From an uncultured Pseudomonadota bacterium (GTDB lineage: Bacteria > Pseudomonadota > Gammaproteobacteria > Steroidobacterales > Steroidobacteraceae), in the NCBI GenBank assembly GCA_903838705.1, contig CAILZL010000003.1:1-64000 (forward strand): DNA of 64,000 nt, given 5' to 3'. Under the pieces are notes generated by a model that did no database searches, was not told the origin of the DNA, and saw only the letters and a program-made list of their open reading frames with translations. The translations under genes were made by a program, and so were the position numbers. The first letter of the stretch is position 1, and the number at the start of each line of letters is the position of its first letter. This document shows, piece by piece, positions 1-17,273 of the stretch.

Positions 1-75
1 AGCAATGCTACTGGCAGTGTTGGCAGCTACCCCAATGGTGCGAATATCACCAATGTCAGTGTCAGCTGTAACTAG
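1..75 (+). CDS. C-terminal end of a secreted repeat protein (partial)
   Basis: Frame 1 is open from the first base to a TAG at 73-75 and gives 24 residues ending in NITNVSVSCN. This is the same closing motif (ANITNVNVSC, TGVSVSC) found in the repeats of the protein that begins at 62785, so this is the last repeat of a related exported protein whose body lies outside the window. A clear terminator follows 31 bp after the stop. No catalytic domain is visible in the remaining piece, so its function cannot be called. Confidence 0.7.
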   Translation, partial: SNATGSVGSYPNGANITNVSVSCN

Positions 76-9247: not shown

Positions 9248-9694
9248 TCAGCTGCTCTTGGTCTGGAGCCTGCGAATTGCGTCTAAATACCCCTGTTCAT
9301 CGGGTGGCAAGCCACTTCGCTGCGCATTCCACAATGCTGTAGCAAGACATTCGATCATTCGATGTTCTGCTTCATGAGGTTCGCCAATACGTTGTGTAAG
9401 TGCCTGGTGTGCTGTGCGGATTCCAGCAGGACGATCGGTGGCTACCTGGTCTCGCACAGCCAGATGCAGCCCCATGTGCAGAAAAGGATTAGTACTGCCA
9501 TCTTCCGGTTTCCAGTCTTTATTCAGTACCCGATCCGGGTCATTGAAGAGTGAGTGATATTCAGGGTGTATAGCAATCACATTGGCAATTTGCGCTTCCA
9601 GCGGTTGCATCGGTAGACGGCTGCAATGCTTTTGCCATGCTTCAAAATACTTGAGGCGTAGCTGGTCACGATTCTGGTTAGTGAAGAAGGGCAT
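9248..9694 (-). CDS. DUF1841 family protein
   Basis: The 148-residue soluble protein matches the DUF1841 pattern throughout: an N-terminal FEAW block, PLEAQIANVIAIHPEYH, the NPFLHMGLHLAVRDQ core, RPAGIR, and HEAEHRMIECLATALW at the C-terminal side. The molecular function of the family is not known. It is the last gene of the minus-strand metG-rnf-nth block, 15 bp after the preceding gene, a neighbourhood often seen for DUF1841 next to nth in proteobacteria. Confidence 0.88.
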   Translation of the reverse strand: MPFFTNQNRDQLRLKYFEAWQKHCSRLPMQPLEAQIANVIAIHPEYHSLFNDPDRVLNKDWKPEDGSTNPFLHMGLHLAVRDQVATDRPAGIRTAHQALTQRIGEPHEAEHRMIECLATALWNAQRSGLPPDEQGYLDAIRRLQTKSS

Positions 9695-9709
9695 TGTCGT
9701 GTTACGAAT

Positions 9710-10252
9710 TCAGGTGCGGAAGTAGCTTGCAGGGAACTTTTCAGTGATCATACCAAGTGGTTTATGCTGACGAAAAATAAGGTAACTGCGGGACAGAAAG
9801 TCTTCGCTGTCCGCAACAGAAAAATGCTGTGATAGATTCCTGTCAGGCTGCCGCGTATAAGAGATGACTTCCCGGTAGGTTTCCATGCGTTCAGCCCGCC
9901 ATAACAGGCCAATGGGCTGGTCACTCTCCAGCAGCTGGCGATGCATGGTATCGGGCAGCCGGTCTATGACGAAGTATGACTCCGCATAAAGCAGATTCTG
10001 AGTGCTGCTGCGCAGCAGGATGGCGCGCTTGAGCACTTTATCATCGGCATTGGTGTTGAGGATGTCAGAGTGGTCAGAGTGGATGAGTTCCTGTGCCAGC
10101 TTGTGAACCTTAACAGGCTGGCCGGTATACAGTTCCAGCAATTGGGTCACAGTGCCATCGGTTGCCAGCAGCACTTTCTGGAACAGACTCAGCGATGGAT
10201 CACGCATCAGGGTGGAAGCGTCGAGAGAGTCAGGAATTGCGGCGTTATCCAT
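9710..10252 (-). CDS. Chorismate-lyase-like (DUF98/UbiC-fold) protein
   Basis: The product is 180 residues. The segments FQKVLLATDGTVTQLLELYT (about 25-44), the ILLRSSTQNLLYAESYFVI core and the closing KFPASYF are typical of the DUF98 branch of the chorismate pyruvate-lyase fold. Members release pyruvate from chorismate to give 4-hydroxybenzoate or act as ligand-binding relatives (the fold is shared with UTRA domains). Whether this one is an active lyase for ubiquinone synthesis is unproven. It overlaps the end of nth by 8 bp, so the two are translationally linked. Confidence 0.75.
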   Translation of the reverse strand: MDNAAIPDSLDASTLMRDPSLSLFQKVLLATDGTVTQLLELYTGQPVKVHKLAQELIHSDHSDILNTNADDKVLKRAILLRSSTQNLLYAESYFVIDRLPDTMHRQLLESDQPIGLLWRAERMETYREVISYTRQPDRNLSQHFSVADSEDFLSRSYLIFRQHKPLGMITEKFPASYFRT

Positions 10253-10967
10253 TGTGCTGACCTGATTTTCTTACGGATGGTTTTCGTCTGGTAGCTGTCT
10301 GACTGGCTGGAAACAAGGCTGGCGGTGCTTCATGACTGCTGGTCTTGTGTCTGTAGTCACACAAGTCATTCAGTACACAGTGTCCGCAATCAGGTTTGCG
10401 CGCCTTGCATACATATCGGCCATGCAGGATCAGCCAGTGGTGTGCATCGAGTTTATATTCTTCCGGAACCAGTTTCAGCAGCTTGTTCTCGACCTGCAAT
10501 ACATTCTTTCCGGGTGCCAGACCGGTGCGGTTGGAGATCCGGAAGATGTGTGTGTCCACCGCAATAGTGGCCTCACCAAAGGCCGTGTTGAGAATCACAT
10601 TGGCGGTTTTGCGACCCACACCGGGCAAGGCTTCGAGTGCTTCACGAGTGCGGGGAACCTGACCATGATGCTGTTCCAGCAGCATAGTGCAGGTCGCAAT
10701 GATGTTCTTTGCTTTGGCGTTGTACAGTCCAATGGTTTTGATAAAGGCCGACAGGCCGGTTACACCAAGTGCCTGAATCTGTGCAGGCGTGCTGGCAACT
10801 TTGTATAGCTTGCGTGTGGCCTGATTAACGCTTTTATCAGTGGCCTGTGCAGACAGGATGACTGCAATCAGCAGTTCGAACGGCGTTCGGTACTCAAGCT
10901 CAGTGACAGGTTTCGGATTCAGGGATTTCAGTCGTGCGAACAGCTCGCGGCGTTGATTCTGGTTCAT
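10245..10967 (-). CDS. nth: Endonuclease III, base-excision repair glycosylase/AP lyase
   Basis: It removes oxidised pyrimidines and cleaves at the abasic site. The helix-hairpin-helix LPGVGRKTANVIL contains the catalytic lysine, AVDTHIFRI contains the catalytic aspartate, and the C-terminal C-x6-C-x2-C-x5-C motif binds a 4Fe-4S cluster. The length is 240 residues, with a basic C-terminal extension of about 30 residues beyond the usual 211. The frame is open upstream, but the ATG at 10967 gives the canonical N-terminus and overlaps the rnfE stop by 4 bp (ATGA), which fits coupled translation. Confidence 0.96.
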   Translation of the reverse strand: MNQNQRRELFARLKSLNPKPVTELEYRTPFELLIAVILSAQATDKSVNQATRKLYKVASTPAQIQALGVTGLSAFIKTIGLYNAKAKNIIATCTMLLEQHHGQVPRTREALEALPGVGRKTANVILNTAFGEATIAVDTHIFRISNRTGLAPGKNVLQVENKLLKLVPEEYKLDAHHWLILHGRYVCKARKPDCGHCVLNDLCDYRHKTSSHEAPPALFPASQTATRRKPSVRKSGQHNG

Positions 10968-11620
10968 GGCGAAACTGTCTTGCCCCGTTTGTGCAGTTTC
11001 AGCTCCAGCCAGTTGTACAGTGCCACACCCAGACCGAGTGCGATGAATGCACCCGGGGCCAGCTTGGCCAGCAGAAATCCCATATCCGGCTGGAAGAACT
11101 GTAGTTCCAGAGCCCTCGCCCAATTTCCCCAGAGATCGCTTGCCTGCGTGAAGAGTGAGCCATGACCAACCAGTTCACGACTCGCACCCAGCACAACGGC
11201 AGCCAGGGCGTATCCAGCGCTCATCAATAATGCACGTGAAATGGCCAGGTGCAGGGATGTCAGATGTTGCTGCATTTCCTGTCGAACCAGTAGCAGAGTG
11301 CTGACCATGATCATGGGCAGAAATAAACCCATCTGCTTAAAGAATGTGTAGAACCACGCGTGCAGCAGCATTTCCTGTATTGCCGTAAAAGTGCCGGCAA
11401 AGATCAGCCACACCATCATATTGGGAGTCGGCCCCGTCAGTCTTGTTAACAGGAGCAGCAGTGCACTACTGTACACACTGACAACCAGCATCAGCAATGC
11501 AACGCTGATGGCCATTGCCAGTGACTCGGTACTTGCCAGCAGTACACACAGATTAAATAGTGGCAGCAGGAATGTTGGCTGCTGCCAGGTCACGTTCAGA
11601 GATTCACTGCTGCGCATCAT
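10964..11620 (-). CDS. rnfE: RnfE-type membrane subunit of the RNF electron-transport complex
   Basis: This 218-residue protein has six hydrophobic segments and the RnfE C-terminal signature (ASRELVGHGSLF, PGAFIALGLGVALYN). In classical RnfE two cysteines, one in TM1 (GLCPLL) and one in TM4 (TNC), help bind an intramembrane 2Fe-2S cluster shared with RnfA. Here the first is present (Cys25 in FNLCVLLAS), but the second position is Thr108 (VST in place of TNC), by my alignment to E. coli RsxE from memory. It overlaps rnfG by 17 bp and nth by 4 bp. The family assignment is firm; the redox competence of the subunit is in doubt. Confidence 0.9.
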   Translation of the reverse strand: MMRSSESLNVTWQQPTFLLPLFNLCVLLASTESLAMAISVALLMLVVSVYSSALLLLLTRLTGPTPNMMVWLIFAGTFTAIQEMLLHAWFYTFFKQMGLFLPMIMVSTLLLVRQEMQQHLTSLHLAISRALLMSAGYALAAVVLGASRELVGHGSLFTQASDLWGNWARALELQFFQPDMGFLLAKLAPGAFIALGLGVALYNWLELKLHKRGKTVSP

Positions 11621-12251
11621 TTCTATACTCGCTTTTCACCTGAAACAGGGTATCGCGATTCCGTTGGTAATAGTCGAGAGTGTGTTGTACTGCATGAATG
11701 ATGGCGCGGGGAGTGATAGTGGCACTGGTGAATTGTTCAAACTCCCCGCCGTCCTTGCGCACATTCCAGCCGCGTGTATCGGGATCGGTCAGTGAATGAC
11801 CCTTGAATTTATCCAGCCAGCCGGAACCCGGTTGTGCAAATGCATCGCCCATTCCGGGGGTTTCATGATGACTGAGTATCCGTACTCCAAGAATTTTACC
11901 TGCATAGTCCACGGCTACCAGCAATTCTATTGGGCCATTGTAACCATCGGCTGCGATGCAATGGATAACCGCGGCAGATGGAGTTCCATGCAGGCGTGCG
12001 CGATACACTGCCACCCGCTGACTTGAGGTTAACTCCGCAGGAGCCTGAATCAAAGCGTGATCATTCAGCAGGTCATTGTCATGTAATTCTGCGGGTACAA
12101 GCACATTGAGCTGAGCTTCGAACCAGGCGCGGTCATTACGAATGATGCGTGCTTCAGTAAATTGCCTGGTCAGTGACAAAATCACCAGGCATAGCAATCC
12201 GGTCACGAAGATCAGCAGCCACTGCTTCTGGTTCAGTCCGGGATTGATCAT
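11604..12251 (-). CDS. rnfG: RnfG, periplasmic FMN-binding subunit of the RNF complex
   Basis: The 215-residue protein has one N-terminal membrane anchor (about 11-28) and a periplasmic FMN-binding domain. The HETPGMGD and GWNVRKDGGEFEQFTSATIT segments are characteristic. FMN is normally attached to a Thr in an S/T-G-A-T motif; here the motif reads TSAT, so the acceptor Thr is kept but Gly is replaced by Ser. It overlaps rnfD by 4 bp. In the usual complex it accepts electrons within the membrane module; in this cluster the RnfB entry subunit is missing. Confidence 0.93.
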   Translation of the reverse strand: MINPGLNQKQWLLIFVTGLLCLVILSLTRQFTEARIIRNDRAWFEAQLNVLVPAELHDNDLLNDHALIQAPAELTSSQRVAVYRARLHGTPSAAVIHCIAADGYNGPIELLVAVDYAGKILGVRILSHHETPGMGDAFAQPGSGWLDKFKGHSLTDPDTRGWNVRKDGGEFEQFTSATITPRAIIHAVQHTLDYYQRNRDTLFQVKSEYRNDAQQ

Positions 12252-13279
12252 GCGGATTCACCATAGATGCGTGGGATGGTGAATTTGTCGATCAGAGGTA
12301 CCGCCAGATTCATCAGCAGGACGGCAAAGGCAACGCCATCGTGGTAATTGCCGAAGTCACGAATCACATAACTCAGTACACCAATGCCGACACCGTACAC
12401 GAGTCTGCCACGCGGACTGGTTGCGGCAGTAACTGGATCTGTGGCAATGAAAAATGCACACAGCATGGTAGCGCCTGAGAACAAATGGAAGAGTGTGCCG
12501 GCGTGTCTGCCCGGATCAATGATATTCATGATCCATGCACATCCACCAAGTCCCAGCAGAACACCCGAGGGAATTTGCCAGCGAATGATTTTCATCGCCA
12601 GCATCAATAGTCCTCCCAGCAATAAAGCAACGGAAACCCACTGCCACCCTTGGCCTGCGAAGCTTCCAAAAGCTGGTTGATTGAAAATTTCTTCCATGGT
12701 CTGACGCTGTGAAAGCCCTGACTTCAGGGCGGCCAGAGGTGAGGCGCCTGACAGCATGTCCACAGAATATATCTCGGGTAGCTTGCCTGAGAAGATTGCC
12801 TGTGCGGTCTGATTTAAGCTCAGCTTGGTCTGTAATGCCCCATCGGCGGGTAACCAGGAAGTCATCTGACGCGGAAATGAAACAAGTAACACCGCATAGC
12901 CCAGCATTGCCGGATTAAACGGGTTGAATCCCAGTCCGCCAAAAGCATGCTTACCCAGCAGAACAGCAAAGGCCATGGCGCTGACGATCAGCCACCAGGG
13001 GGCCAGTGGCGGCATCGACATGGCAAGCAGCGCGGCGGTAACCAGCACGCTGCCATCAGTCAATGGTTGTGCAAGAGGTTTGTGGCGCATCTGCAATGCC
13101 AGTGCTTCACACAATAAACCGGTGCTGACTGCCAGTCCTGTCTGAAGTAACAGACCGGAGCCAAAATATACTGTCTGGACGCACATTGCCGGTAGCAGCG
13201 ACAGTAGCACCATGCACATGATGAAGCGTACAGATGGCGCGCGATGCAGATGCGGTGCGGGTGGTGTGTTCAGTTTCAT
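12248..13279 (-). CDS. rnfD: RnfD, membrane FMN-binding subunit of the RNF complex
   Basis: The protein has 343 residues and about nine or ten hydrophobic segments, homologous to RsxD/NqrB. The covalent FMN site is expected in DMLSGASPLAAL, where Ser replaces the more common Thr, a change the flavinylation consensus allows. The GFNPFNPAMLGYAV and ATDPVTAATSPRGRLVYG segments are standard RnfD signatures. It sits 6 bp after rnfC and overlaps rnfG by 4 bp. Confidence 0.95.
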   Translation of the reverse strand: MKLNTPPAPHLHRAPSVRFIMCMVLLSLLPAMCVQTVYFGSGLLLQTGLAVSTGLLCEALALQMRHKPLAQPLTDGSVLVTAALLAMSMPPLAPWWLIVSAMAFAVLLGKHAFGGLGFNPFNPAMLGYAVLLVSFPRQMTSWLPADGALQTKLSLNQTAQAIFSGKLPEIYSVDMLSGASPLAALKSGLSQRQTMEEIFNQPAFGSFAGQGWQWVSVALLLGGLLMLAMKIIRWQIPSGVLLGLGGCAWIMNIIDPGRHAGTLFHLFSGATMLCAFFIATDPVTAATSPRGRLVYGVGIGVLSYVIRDFGNYHDGVAFAVLLMNLAVPLIDKFTIPRIYGESA

Positions 13280-13285
13280 GATGAT

Positions 13286-14611
13286 TCAGACCATCACTTT
13301 CGCATCGCGGAAGCGCGTCGCCAGCCTGATATGGCTGGGACATGCATAGTCACAGCTGCCACACTCGATACAATCATGCAGCTCCAGCTCCCTGAGTGCG
13401 GTTGTATTGCCAAGTCTGGCATGTACAAGTAATAGCTGCGGCAGCAGATGTACCGGACACACTTCTGCACATTTGCCGCAGCGTATGCAGGCATGCTCTG
13501 GAGGGGCAGGCTTGAACTCATGTTCATCAGCAAGAATCAGGCAATTGCTGGCTTTGATCACCGGGTAATCAGGATGCATGAGCGAGAGCCCCATCATGGC
13601 GCCGCCCATCACGAGCCTCTGATTGATACTGTAAGTAGCACCACAGTGGTCAAGCAGATCACGTATGGGCGTGCCGATACGTGTCAGGTAGTTGCCGGGT
13701 TTGCTTACGCCGTTCCCGCAGACAGTCACAACGCGTCGGGTAAGCGGTTCGCCATGTAATATCCAGCGAGCACAGGCGTAAACTGTTGCGACATTGCTGA
13801 CGATGATGCCGATTTCAGCGGGTAACTTGCCGCGAGGGATTTCTTTGCCGGTCAGCTGCCTGATTAACTGGGCTTCGTCACCACTGGGGTAAGTGCTGGC
13901 GAGGATGCGAATTTCAATTCGCTTGTCATTCAGGCTATCGAGACTGCTTCGAATAGCAGCGACGGCTTCCGGCTTGTCAGCTTCAATGGCAATTGTGGCC
14001 TGTTCTGCCTGGGTTGCATGCAGCATGATCTGTATGCCCATCAGGATGGTCACTGCCTGTTCGCGCATGAGTCGATCATCGCAGCTGATAAAGGGCTCAC
14101 ATTCGACACCGTTAATGATTAGCTGGCTTATGGTGTGGTGTGGCTGTACGGCCAGCTTGGTTGCAATGGGAAATGCAGCGCCACCCAGCCCGACAATTCC
14201 TCCCTTTGCAAGATGCTCGCAAAGTGCGCTGCGCGGCATGCTTGGCCACTCCTGTATGGCTTGCAGATTGGTATCAGGCGTGTCCAGATAATCGTTGCTG
14301 AGCACAATACTCATCGTGAATTCGTTACATGGTTTGGCGCTGGGGCGTGGTTCGACTGTCAGGACAGTTCCTGACACGGGGGCATGCAAACAGGCGCCCA
14401 GCGAGGTATCAGGTCTTGCAATGATCTGACCGAGCCGAATCTTGTCGCCCGCAGATACGCAGGGGATAAGTTTTGTATCGCCATGCTGATTCAACGTCAG
14501 AACCAGTTGCTGTGGTGCGGGCGCGTGACTTATTGCCTGCTCGCGCGTTCGCTCTTTGTGGTGCGGTATGACTAATCCCTGATAGTGTGCTGAAGGCATA
14601 GGATCGGGCAC
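13286..14611 (-). CDS. rnfC: RnfC, NADH/FMN and iron-sulfur subunit of the RNF complex
   Basis: The 441-residue peripheral subunit is homologous to RsxC. The N-terminal barrel-sandwich region (HAPVSGTV), the FMN/NADH domain (GIVGLGGAAFPIATKL, INGVECEPFISCDDRLM) and the SLBB-like part (TVCGNGVSKPGN) are followed by two ferredoxin motifs, CIRCGKCAEVCP and CIECGSCDYACP, which should hold two 4Fe-4S clusters. It lacks the long Ala/Lys-rich tail of E. coli RsxC. rnfA ends 8 bp upstream, leaving no space for rnfB, which lies between A and C in the usual operon. Confidence 0.95.
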   Translation of the reverse strand: MPDPMPSAHYQGLVIPHHKERTREQAISHAPAPQQLVLTLNQHGDTKLIPCVSAGDKIRLGQIIARPDTSLGACLHAPVSGTVLTVEPRPSAKPCNEFTMSIVLSNDYLDTPDTNLQAIQEWPSMPRSALCEHLAKGGIVGLGGAAFPIATKLAVQPHHTISQLIINGVECEPFISCDDRLMREQAVTILMGIQIMLHATQAEQATIAIEADKPEAVAAIRSSLDSLNDKRIEIRILASTYPSGDEAQLIRQLTGKEIPRGKLPAEIGIIVSNVATVYACARWILHGEPLTRRVVTVCGNGVSKPGNYLTRIGTPIRDLLDHCGATYSINQRLVMGGAMMGLSLMHPDYPVIKASNCLILADEHEFKPAPPEHACIRCGKCAEVCPVHLLPQLLLVHARLGNTTALRELELHDCIECGSCDYACPSHIRLATRFRDAKVMV

Positions 14612-14619
14612 TCCTGTGA

Positions 14620-15189
14620 CTAGTTACGCACCATGCCGGCAAATCCAAGCAGGCCTAAAGCCATGAAGCCCGCAGTAATCAATGCGATTGGTATGCCGCG
14701 AAATGCGAGCGGGACATCCGCACAATCAATTCGCTGGCGCAGGGCATTGAAGCAGGCATTCAATATGGCCAGCAATACCGATGCGCCGAGACCGTAACCG
14801 AGCGCTTCCGCCGGCGTTTCAAGGTAATCGGCGCTGTAAATAGCCATGCCAAGCATGGCGGATTGATTAGTCAGATGAACGATGAAGTCCGGCCAGCGCA
14901 CGGCACCTGGCACTCTTGTCAGTGCCATGCGGCAGATCATGAAAATGCATGACAGGCCTGTTAATAAAACGGGTGTGTACAGGTGATTGAGTTGCAGGAC
15001 GCCCGATGCTTTGCTCAAGCCGTACCCCAGCAATGCTGACAGTGTCAATGTCAGCAGGGTGAAAGCAGCAGTACGGAACTCATCATTGAATATTCCGCGC
15101 GCTCCTGAGTCAGTTATGACCTTGCCCGCTGCAATTGCTGAGCTTTGTATGAGCACCGTGCCAAGCAGAATGATCAGCAGGCTGTTCAT
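14620..15189 (-). CDS. rnfA: RnfA-type membrane subunit lacking the cluster cysteines
   Basis: The 189-residue protein has six hydrophobic segments. The family match is clear: LLGTVLIQ at the N-terminus, LTNQSAMLGMAIY in the middle, CADVPLAFRGIPIALITAGFMALGLLGF at the C-terminal side (split here only as description). In E. coli RsxA the cysteines of LGLCPF and TNCAVLG bind the intramembrane 2Fe-2S cluster with RnfE. A gap-free alignment from memory puts Thr26 and Ser110 at these positions, so both ligands are lost. The cysteines present (81, 86, 146, 156) lie elsewhere. It starts 8 bp after metG and belongs to the same transcript. Confidence 0.88.
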   Translation of the reverse strand: MNSLLIILLGTVLIQSSAIAAGKVITDSGARGIFNDEFRTAAFTLLTLTLSALLGYGLSKASGVLQLNHLYTPVLLTGLSCIFMICRMALTRVPGAVRWPDFIVHLTNQSAMLGMAIYSADYLETPAEALGYGLGASVLLAILNACFNALRQRIDCADVPLAFRGIPIALITAGFMALGLLGFAGMVRN

Positions 15190-15197
15190 AGTGACAG

Positions 15198-17273
15198 TTA
15201 TTTCACTTTCATGCCGGGCAGGGCGCCGCTATCCGGTGACAGAATGAATATCTGTTTGTCCTTGGCATTCCCGCCATCAGTTGCATCGGAACCTGCCGCC
15301 AGCACCATGCCTTCGGACATACCGAAGCGCATCTTGCGTGGTTTAAGGTTGGCAAATACCAGAGTAAGGCGATTGATCAATTGTGCAGGCTCATATGCTG
15401 AACGTATCCCGGCGAAAATTGTACGGGTACCGAGTTCAGTACCCAGATCGACAGTCAGTTTCAGCAGCTTGTCAGCTCCATCCACCAGTTCTGCATTGAT
15501 GATTCTGGCAATGCGCAGATCCAGTTTGGTGAAGTCATCAATGGTGGCCTCACCATCGGTAGCCTGTGCAGATGGATTTGGGGCTGTTTTCGAGCCTGTG
15601 ATTGCAGGTGCCTTTGTACTTGAAGGTTCAGCCTGTTGATTGGCGGCTACCAGTGCTTTGACCGCAGCTGCATCAATGCGGGTGGCAAGTGGTTCATAGG
15701 TGTTGATCTTGCTGCCCATTAATGGCCGTTGCACATCATCCCATGCCAGTTCGTTGCCCCCAAGGAATGCTTCAGCTCTGGTTGCCAGTTCAGGCAAAAC
15801 GGGTTTCAGCATCAGTATCAGTACCCGGAACAGATTGATGGCCTGAGTACATACCCCATGAACTTCAGCAGCGCGATCCGGATTCTTGGCCAGCAGCCAG
15901 GGTTTGTGCTGATCAATATACAGATTTGCCTTGTCAGCCAGCGCCATGATGTCGCGCATGGCGGCCGCATATTCGCGGGCTTCATAAGCCTCTGCAATGC
16001 CGGATAGCTTGTGCAGGAATTCATCATACAGTTCAGGTTCTGGAAGTTTGATCGCCAGTCGGTTATCAAAGCTGCGTGCCAGAAAGCCGGCGCAGCGGCT
16101 GGCGATGTTTACCAGCTTGCCCACAATGTCGGAATTGATTTTGTTGACGAAATCATCCAGACCCAGATCCAGATCATCCAGTCCTGACCCGAGCCGTGAA
16201 GCAAAGAAGTATCGTAGTGGTTCAGTTGGCAGGTGTTCACGCCAGCTGCTGGCGGTAATGAATGTGCCGCGTGACTTGGACATTTTTTCACCATTGATGG
16301 TGAGGAAGCCATGCACAAAGATGCCGTCAGGGGTGCGGAATCCGGCACCATGCAGAACTGCAGGCCAGAATAATGAATGGAAGTAGAGAATATCCTTGCC
16401 AATGAAGTGATAAAGCTCGGTTGGACTGCCGGGCTTCCACCATGCTTCAAAGCCCCAGCCATGCTGCCGGCACAGGTTGAGGAAGCTGGCCATGTAACCG
16501 ACAGGCGCATCCAGCCAGACATAGAAATATTTGCCCGGTGCGCCGGGGATCTCAAATCCGAAATAAGGCGCGTCACGGGAAATGTCCCAATCCTTCAAAC
16601 CTGCTGCGAACCATTCGTCCAGCTTATTGGTGACGGACTGTTGCAGCGTGCCAGAGCGGGTCCAGTCGCGCAGCATGGTTTCAAAATTGGCCAGCTTGAA
16701 AAACAGATGTTCTGATTCTCTTTCAACTGGCGTAGTGCCGCTGACTACCGATACCGGGTCAATCAGATCGCTGGTCGAATAGGTTGCGCCGCAGCTTTCA
16801 CAGCTGTCACCATTTTGATTGGCTGCGTTGCAACGCGGGCAGGTGCCTTTGACAAAGCGATCCGGCAAAAACATCTGGGCCTGTTCGTCATATGCCTGAC
16901 GAACCATGCGGCGCTCGATATGCCCGCCTCGTTCCAGTGCTTCATAGGCACGGTAGGTCAGTTCACGATTTTCTTCCGAATGTGTGCTGTGATAATTATC
17001 GAAATCGATATGAAAGGCATCCAGATCGGCCTTGTGTTCCAGTGCAACGCGCGCAATCAATGCTTCAGGTGTTATGCCCTCTGATTGGGCGCGCAGCATG
17101 ATCGGTGTGCCGTGAGTATCATCTGCGCAAACATAGATGCACTCGTGGCCGCGAAGTTTCTGGAAGCGAACCCAGATATCAGTCTGGATGGTTTCAACCA
17201 TGTGACCAAGGTGCAAGGGTCCATTAGCATAGGGCAGGGCGCTGGTAACGAGGATGCGGCGTTTGGCAGTCAT
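15198..17273 (-). CDS. metG: Methionyl-tRNA synthetase
   Basis: It charges tRNA-Met with methionine. The 691 residues show a HIGH-type motif (HLGH) at about 22, a zinc-knuckle insertion with CPRC and CESC pairs at about 145-162, KMSKS at about 335, and a C-terminal tRNA-binding OB-fold domain ([12 protein letters not shown] to the end), which is the long dimeric form of the enzyme. It is first in the minus-strand block that continues into rnfA with an 8-bp gap. Its promoter must lie within 17274-17383. Confidence 0.98.

Follow-up and report, generated by a model that had tools for sequence, protein, structure and literature searches.

In the RNF complex, electrons are described as passing from ferredoxin through RnfB, the cluster shared by RnfA and RnfE (the A/E cluster), RnfG, RnfD and RnfC to NAD+, or in reverse (PMC12174285; here and below, citations refer to the parts of each paper that were available). 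Acetobacterium woodii A/E (AE1) or B8 cysteine mutants showed neither growth on H2 + CO2 nor ferredoxin (Fd):NAD+ activity, and direct transfer from RnfB to RnfC was deemed unlikely over more than 30 A (PMC11889175). The related Na+-NQR (NqrABCDEF) is held to descend from a copy of rnf through loss of rnfB and acquisition of NqrF (PMC4014512, PMC12174285), and for partial RnfD/RnfG systems a one-way flow from NAD(P)H to the periplasm was proposed (PMC8238504). Here we describe an rnf locus without rnfB in a 64,000-nucleotide stretch of DNA (the window, which supplies all coordinates) from an uncultured member of Steroidobacteraceae (contig CAILZL010000003.1, assembly GCA_903838705.1). Because the survey of partial systems scored RNF by the presence of RnfB in the cluster (PMC8238504, PMC10979944), the window locus would not count as RNF under that rule.

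Comparison to RNF structures from Azotobacter vinelandii (8ahx), A. woodii (9eri) and Clostridium tetanomorphum (7zc6) showed homologous A, C, D, G and E subunits in the usual order, shared folds of the modelled RnfA and RnfE, the iron-sulphur (FeS) and NuoF-like parts of RnfC, the riboflavin ligands of RnfD and the flavin mononucleotide (FMN) threonine of RnfG. The window locus differs in lacking RnfB, three of the four A/E cysteines and RnfE Arg67, in having Ser for Thr in RnfD, and in an RnfC tail reduced to a stub, this tail being long in gammaproteobacterial RnfC but not in 9eri or 7zc6. Na+-NQR likewise has five homologous subunits and no RnfB, but no NqrF was found in the window genome, the locus has a redox RnfC rather than NqrA, and its A/E cluster is eroded where NQR keeps its own. 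The NQR/RNF-like partial systems share the RnfD-RnfG branch and have been given a one-way NAD(P)H-to-periplasm mechanism, but consist of two apparent subunits, the RnfD part forming a fusion with an NAD domain of the NqrF type (PMC8238504, PMC10979944); in the window the full RnfC would take the job of that domain, and A and E remain. Solitary RsxB/RnfB (NF005415, PRK06991 type) occupies the same metG-nth locus in sister genera and is the complement of the window locus, namely an RnfB without A, C, D, G and E, with no anchor seen and an RnfC-like tail. Among the matches listed in a search of the open-access literature (subscription papers lay outside it), nothing was found on an RnfB-less RNF except as the origin of NQR, nor on a metG-rnfB-nth arrangement or an RnfB that carries the tail of RnfC.

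An rnf locus lacking rnfB

A first-pass annotation of the window had proposed the order rnfA, C, D, G, E and nth with rnfB missing and 8 bp separating A from C, which was borne out by open frames and profile matches (Table 1), although position 9248, given as the start of the cluster, belongs to the DUF1841 gene. Between 17273 and 9248 the minus strand carries, in this order, metG, rnfA, rnfC, rnfD, rnfG, rnfE and nth, followed by a chorismate-lyase-like gene and the DUF1841 gene. The locus was examined for RnfB and for the four cluster cysteines, and because the former is absent and a single cysteine is left, it is classed as an RNF variant rather than as a working ferredoxin:NAD+ RNF.

The window genome (2,736,365 bases in 43 contigs) is listed as 100% complete and 0.2% contaminated, and a search of the whole of it for rnfB or a second rnf or nqr set found none. 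PF02508 matched only this RnfA and RnfE, PF03116 gave a single match, the rnfB profile reached at best 36 bits (cut-off 68.7) with the ferredoxin part alone matched, and the nqrF profile at best 34.7 bits (cut-off 295). The first-pass annotation had held that rnfB elsewhere in the genome, together with cysteines regained on realignment, would overturn its reading, and neither was seen. RnfA had no match in the plasmid collection searched. An assembly gap or local decay was also considered and is ruled out, as the locus is continuous and the same arrangement recurs in three further genomes.

These form the window's genus (family f1, Steroidobacteraceae) together with the window genome (G000), and comprise G001 and G003, both 'Jr-28' Proteobacteria metagenome-assembled genomes, and G002, Steroidobacteraceae bacterium GZL_HY_2_bin.97. 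All four have metG-A-C-D-G-E-nth in open frames without rnfB, at MetG identities as low as 76%. Among 80 named loci, rnfA and rnfC are both in view in 72, of which 69 have rnfB and the three without it belong to the window's genus. Because the gene set is common to 4/4 genomes and only this genus is B-less among the 72 named loci, the B-less gene set is more than chance. A class-wide sample of 370 genomes, each at least 90% complete, contained rnfC at E <=1e-50 in 220, and 80 of these were tested for rnfB (70 with a weak rnfC, made up of all those weaker than 1e-150 plus hand-picked weak ones, and the ten strongest). rnfB exceeded its cut-off in 75 of the 80 as a genome-wide match, irrespective of its place in the operon, and the five below the cut-off were G408 and G537, where a contig ends inside the operon, G428 and G581, which have no rnfD match, and the window genome.

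Table 1. Genes and intervals of the rnf locus on the window (all on the minus strand).
Feature	Position	Strand	Remarks
metG	15198-17273	-	conserved upstream neighbour; marker of the orthologous locus in relatives
rnfA	14620-15189	-	189 aa, divergent; first cluster Cys gone (Ile25/Thr26), second is Ser110
rnfA-rnfC junction, 8 bp	14612-14619	-	position of rnfB in relatives (metG-A-B-C-D-G-E-nth)
rnfC	13286-14611	-	441 aa, GTG start; TIGR01945 473.5 bits, above cut-off
rnfD	12248-13279	-	343 aa; TIGR01946 383.2 bits, above cut-off
rnfG	11604-12251	-	215 aa; TIGR01947 166.1 bits, above cut-off
rnfE	10964-11620	-	218 aa, divergent; TIGR01948 98.8 bits (cut-off 213.4)
nth (endonuclease III)	10245-10967	-	TIGR01083; downstream neighbour conserved by synteny
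chorismate-lyase-like gene	9710-10252	-	PF01947; between nth and DUF1841
DUF1841 gene	9248-9694	-	PF08897; often downstream of nth in relatives

The PF01947 gene also follows nth in G001 and G003, while the G002 contig stops within nth, and no PF01947 match was seen at the g4, g17 and f9 loci compared.

Cluster cysteines and conservation of the five subunits

RnfA scored 51.4 bits against NCBIfam rnfA (cut-off 229.3) and 23.4 against Pfam (cut-off 23.8), and RnfE also lies below its curated cut-off. RnfA matched the PDB RnfA of A. woodii (9eri_A) at E 1.7e-10, and its AlphaFold2 model (mean predicted local distance difference test score, pLDDT, 72.4) had the same chain as best match (Z 10.4, root-mean-square deviation (rmsd) 3.6, 140 aligned), with RnfA, NqrE or NqrD as all of the top ten matches, yet unrelated helical proteins reach Z 8 and the Z of this model is one that helical bundles can attain by chance. 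The RnfE model (mean pLDDT 79.8) best matched 8ahx_E (Z 19.4, rmsd 3.4, 202 aligned). By PDB match, fold and synteny, both proteins are still homologous to RnfA and RnfE.

The one [2Fe-2S] cysteine ligand left in the window genome is RnfE Cys25. The first-pass annotation had identified this residue correctly, along with RnfE Thr108 and RnfA Ser110, whereas the first RnfA site, which it gave as Thr26, is Ile25 or Thr26 depending on the position of a one-residue gap, and neither is Cys. Its statement that three of the four were lost together describes the window genome but not the genus, as the states at A1-A2-E1-E2 are I-S-C-T in the window, N-C-C-P in G001, A-C-C-P in G003 and R-C-C-C in G002, which leaves one, two, two and three cysteines, respectively. 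A-Cys1 is therefore lost in 4/4 genomes, E-Cys2 in 3/4, A-Cys2 in 1/4 (the window genome only) and E-Cys1 in 0/4. In the same alignment 54 loci with rnfB are C-C-C-C, and the remaining rnfB loci with four sites shown are five gapped ones and three of genus g4; gaps at L110, L113, L155, L158, L162 and L177 resemble cut or shifted frames and were left out of the cysteine-loss counts. Arg67 of RnfE, part of the Na+-gate in A. woodii naming, is Asn67 in the window and Ser, Thr or Gln in the other three genomes, and its gate partner Glu115 is retained in the window genome. With Arg67 replaced, it is less likely that the complex pumps ions together with other partners, as had been suggested.

RnfC has both CxxCxxCxxxCP ferredoxin motifs (Cys375-385 and Cys414-424), as had been noted, and also keeps GLGGAAFP (141-148) and all nine invariant cysteines. 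The FMN motifs had likewise been read correctly as SGAS (Ser180) in RnfD and TSAT (Thr178) in RnfG. The FMN-attachment Thr of RnfD is replaced by Ser in 4/4 genomes of the genus, and the resulting DMLSGAS conforms to the ApbE motif D-x-x-[S/T]-G-A-[S/T] (PMC12052999). The RnfD riboflavin ligands N122 and D281 (aligned to N123/D249 of A. woodii 9eri_D) are kept, as are the FMN-attachment Thr178 and Tyr104 of RnfG. RnfD contains PF03116 only, without a fused PF00175 NAD domain, and scored 383.2 bits as rnfD against 133.0 as nqrB (nqrB cut-off 349.9). Three ApbE genes are present in the window genome, and among 36 family genomes ApbE was found in 8/8 with an RNF-type rnfD in comparison to 18/28 without. 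An ApbE gene was identified by profile on contig C4 of the window genome (L221:4554-8449), where the surrounding frames, judged by eye, resemble genes for a membrane protein of the PepSY type, a DUF2271-like protein and a flavodoxin-reductase; this region is perhaps a second flavinylation system of the window genome.

Conservation was measured over invariant columns, defined as those at least 95% identical across canonical named loci (columns/rows used: A 80/66, C 94/71, D 70/74, G 40/72, E 62/65). The window's genus keeps 34-42% of these in A and 48-55% in E, in comparison to 78-86% in C, 91-93% in D and 82-93% in G. The corresponding values for g4 (which includes Steroidobacter sp. TY_HY_2_bin.4) and g17, in which rnfB is present, are A 34-50%, E 52-66% (RnfE being readable at 5/9 loci), C 83-94%, D 93-99% and G 85-97%, and those for family f9 are A 26%, E 34% (from L040 alone, the L041 RnfE being truncated at a contig end), C 80-81%, D 87% and G 62-65%. 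Judged by these columns, erosion is one-sided, affecting A and E rather than C, D and G, in the window's genus and again in g4/g17 and f9. Within the genus, the ratio of non-synonymous to synonymous differences (pN/pS) of the five rnf genes was 0.21-0.49, a rough bound as synonymous sites are mostly saturated, and pN/pS was below 1 for every gene compared. The cysteine-poor RnfA of the close g4 pair L203/L207 showed non-synonymous divergence (dN) of 0.069 at synonymous divergence (dS) of 0.50. These pN/pS values indicate that purifying selection likely acts on all five rnf genes and, with open frames in four genomes, they agree with the proposal that the complex is reduced yet maintained, as opposed to decaying locally.

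The first-pass annotation had also tied the loss of RnfB to that of the cysteines; both losses do occur in the window's genus, but the relation is not one to one. In g4, rnfB is retained in 14/14 listed genomes, yet the second RnfE cysteine is lost in 14/14 (L038, misaligned in its own row, is identical to the gene of L086) and both RnfA cysteines are lost in the eight read, and rnfD was found in 14/14 despite these losses. In g17, the genome G019 has lost the RnfA cysteines with rnfB kept; its RnfE was found by PF02508, the cysteine reading there covering RnfA. Conversely, G002 keeps three of the four cysteines despite having no rnfB. Because g4 keeps rnfB with lost cysteines and G002 keeps three cysteines without it, uncoupling can start at either end, with the cysteines lost first in g4, and with rnfB gone and the cysteines going in a staggered manner in the window's genus.

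The MetG tree joined the window's genus to g19 (98/97), where RNF has the canonical six genes, with g4/g17 elsewhere. The RnfC+RnfD tree instead grouped it with g4 and g17 (94/93, a support below the starred level) at a distance from g19, and the two trees conflict over one versus two losses of the first RnfA cysteine in the family. Since f9 is far off in the RnfC+RnfD tree and keeps rnfB, cysteine loss likely had at least two origins. The f9 loci (L040:6626-11593 and L041:6-4800) are metG-linked RNF sets with rnfB and very divergent A/E, and all four cysteine sites are changed in L040. Both f9 genomes have a second, ordinary-scoring PF02508 pair elsewhere, in the order D-E-A with no nth adjoining, which may be nqr. 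MetG sequences of g4, g17, g5, g8, g18, g2, g12 and g22 (L037-L039, L182-L208) branch apart from the rest of the family, which hints at metG replacement by transfer.

Solitary RnfB and the RnfC-like tail in sister genera

Most sister genera present the mirror image of the window locus. Across 217 family genomes, incomplete ones included, rnfB was found in 185 and PF03116 in 32, the latter consisting of three nqr-like sets in g24, two weak partial matches in g21 and 27 RNF-type matches, 23 of which are accompanied by rnfB and four of which, those of the window's genus, are not. rnfB with no RNF-type rnfD found characterized 162/217 family genomes, many of them incomplete and one (G184) cut by a contig end. 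Among the 114 best family genomes (at least 90% complete, at most 5% contaminated), 101 had rnfB, 17 had PF03116 and 88 had rnfB without an RNF-type rnfD. The g24 genome G195 (L211:282-4910) carries a real nqr operon with NqrB, NqrE and NqrF above cut-off, plus rnfB; the other two g24 genomes were called nqr by architecture alone. Neither rnfB nor rnfA/E was found in G023 (98% complete) or in G004, G008 and G028 (each below 90%).

Reading one solitary locus per genus gave the order metG-rnfB-nth, mostly followed by DUF1841. RnfB was isolated in 14 of 20 such loci, the remaining six (L184, L186, L192, L196, L198, L200), in which a longer overlapping frame hid B, standing outside the tail comparison. 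All 14 keep the 12 invariant cysteines, and in none was a membrane anchor seen before the core, as judged by eye (a few family rnfB matches start early in the model). When two of the solitary RnfB were compared to NCBIfam, NF005415 gave the best match for each, at 221.8 and 242.4 bits (cut-off 281), and both exceeded the rnfB cut-off. The solitary proteins have 51-81 residues after the last cluster motif, in comparison to 12-28 in g4/g17 RnfB, and these tails matched a profile of the RnfC C-terminal tail in 14/14 cases, with E values at Z 1000 of 6.6e-7 to 0.019. The best of 280 shuffles reached E 0.12, and none of the RnfB from six-gene loci was listed at E <=1. RnfC itself ends 16 residues after its last cluster motif in the window (16-18 in the genus), while fewer than 30 residues were found in 0/84 other readable RnfC, so that RnfC is without its tail in 4/4 genomes of the window's genus. 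In 8ahx, where chain C has 496 residues, alignment with the window RnfC stops at 433.

The tail is thus located on RnfC if RnfB is a separate subunit, on RnfB if the latter is alone, and is gone if RnfB is gone. As the tail follows the presence of RnfB across loci, we infer that it serves RnfB; the window's genus is one lineage and counts as a single event within this pattern. Both arrangements occur within g17, where G019 (L039:7679-9674) has six rnf genes and G163 (L202:6117-6731) has only rnfB. The core of the G163 protein aligns with the G019 RnfB and its end resembles the G019 RnfC tail (score 115, against 54 for the best of 1000 shuffles). L202 also hit residues 1-128 of the RnfC frame in g17; these stem from an upstream out-of-frame extension, and the hit was disregarded. 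From its sequence, the g17 solitary RnfB looks like a recent in-frame fusion accompanied by loss of the rest. The RnfB tree unites the two g17 RnfB (100/99), and the 13 remaining solitary RnfB lie apart from them (95/90, with a bootstrap that had not settled), so fusion of RnfB to the tail probably arose twice.

Proposed electron flow through the reduced complex

Since the A. woodii mutants are inactive and RnfB-RnfC transfer is unlikely, the first half of the path (ferredoxin, RnfB, A/E cluster, RnfG) cannot run as known at the window locus, and with RnfB and the cluster gone, the remaining path is NADH, RnfC, RnfD and RnfG. Our tentative reading, which falls a little short of an even chance, is that this RNF has shed its ferredoxin branch and kept the C-D-G branch as a one-way conduit from NADH to periplasmic flavin. 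RnfC would oxidise NADH, and electrons would move from RnfC to the riboflavin and covalent FMN of RnfD and then to the covalent FMN of RnfG on the periplasmic side, from which a periplasmic partner would take them. RnfA and RnfE would persist mainly as a membrane scaffold or a gate for RnfG, and redox-driven ion pumping by the known mechanism would be absent. In favour of this reading are the absence of any rnfB, nqrF or second rnf or nqr set among the matches in the window genome, the gene set shared by 4/4 genomes of the genus, the one-sided conservation, the cofactor sites kept in C, D and G, the ApbE genes, the pN/pS values below 1 and the separability of RnfB from the other subunits in 162/217 family genomes. 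The other route from RnfC to RnfD/G envisaged in the first-pass annotation is not needed, as electrons already pass over C-D-G in the second half of the normal RNF path. The same uncoupling would have freed RnfB in sister genera, where it survives alone as a ferredoxin that lacks the anchor and bears a tail like that of RnfC. The wider view, in which RNF consists of two separable machines whose halves have parted within Steroidobacteraceae, with the C-D-G half on a cluster-poor A/E scaffold here and, in most sister genera, only an RnfB released from the membrane and fused to the tail that once served it on RnfC, is possible but somewhat more doubtful.

Several observations weigh against the conduit. 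No periplasmic acceptor or donor was noticed and none is suggested by the operon genes, although no search was aimed at a donor. The A and E frames are open with about half of the invariant E columns kept, and G002 keeps three of four cysteines; some A/E function may therefore remain. Thr to Ser replacement lowered flavinylation by 10-55% in reviewed tests (PMC12052999), and by analogy the Ser of RnfD may do the same; a Gly to Ser change in RnfG sits within the same kind of motif. The fast change of A and E could be drift towards loss of the whole complex, as in most sister genera; the Steroidobacter-group (g4) pair L205/L206 has pN/pS of 0.61 for A and 0.73 for E, and dS is saturated in most within-genus pairs. 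Complex I is encoded in the window genome, so losing RNF need not be costly. Finally, sequence cannot tell the direction of electron flow.

Alternatively, the complex may be decaying in the genus, with RnfB lost first, A and E next, and C, D and G slower to erode. We consider this unlikely, though it deserves serious weight, as the membrane part has usually disappeared in the family (rnfB without an RNF-type rnfD in 162/217 genomes), G004, G008, G023 and G028 are without both rnfB and rnfA/E, A and E retain the fewest invariant columns, pN of E is highest or near-highest where read, and the RnfD Thr is lost. These points are set against five open frames held in 4/4 genomes while MetG identity falls to 76%, the 91-93% of invariant columns kept in RnfD and the pN/pS of 0.21-0.49 across five genes, and against g4, where rnfD persists in 14/14 genomes despite A/E cysteine losses and the L203/L207 RnfA has dN of 0.069 against dS of 0.50.

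The derivation of NQR from an rnf copy minus rnfB (PMC4014512, PMC12174285) and the homology of RnfD to NqrB would also be compatible with an NQR-like re-invention, an NADH:quinone reductase in which RnfC oxidises NADH and RnfD reduces quinone. This is improbable, as NQR works with an intact NqrD/E cluster and with NqrF, which was not found in the window genome, RnfC retains its FeS cysteines while NqrA is without a redox cofactor (PMC12174285), and RnfD scores 383 bits as RnfD against 133 as NqrB. The window locus shows the first step of the proposed NQR origin, rnfB loss, without the second, the gain of NqrF, and differs from NQR in having given up the A/E cluster. There is a similarly small chance that A and E are still fed, with another ferredoxin docking without RnfB and iron held by fewer or other ligands; RnfE Cys25 is present in 4/4 genomes, the second A site is Cys in 3/4, G002 has three of the four and weak ferredoxin-type matches occur in the window genome, but a single ligand is left there, the substitutes at the first A site differ (Ile/Ala/Asn/Arg), and g4 also keeps RnfE Cys25, which may be structural. 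Inward flow, from a periplasmic reductant through RnfG, RnfD and RnfC to NAD+, would use the same retained cofactor sites in a complex family that is bidirectional (PMC12174285), but is the least probable, as it requires a low-potential periplasmic donor and none was noticed, without a search aimed at one.

For annotation, a rule that recognizes RNF by RnfB misses the window locus, and in Steroidobacteraceae rnfB alone is no sign of RNF. RNF and NQR cross the membrane twice through one fixed electron chain, of which the window locus is a natural dissection; a B-less RNF can show whether C-D-G works alone, which role is left to A and E once the cluster is lost, and whether ion pumping depends on that cluster. 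The RnfB-linked tail points to a candidate docking element for RnfB on RnfC, and the genomes with an anchor-less solitary RnfB suggest an independent role for this protein. If the C-D-G conduit is true, the window's genus would have a natural half-circuit RNF, a present-day analogue of the loss of rnfB from which NQR is proposed to have arisen.

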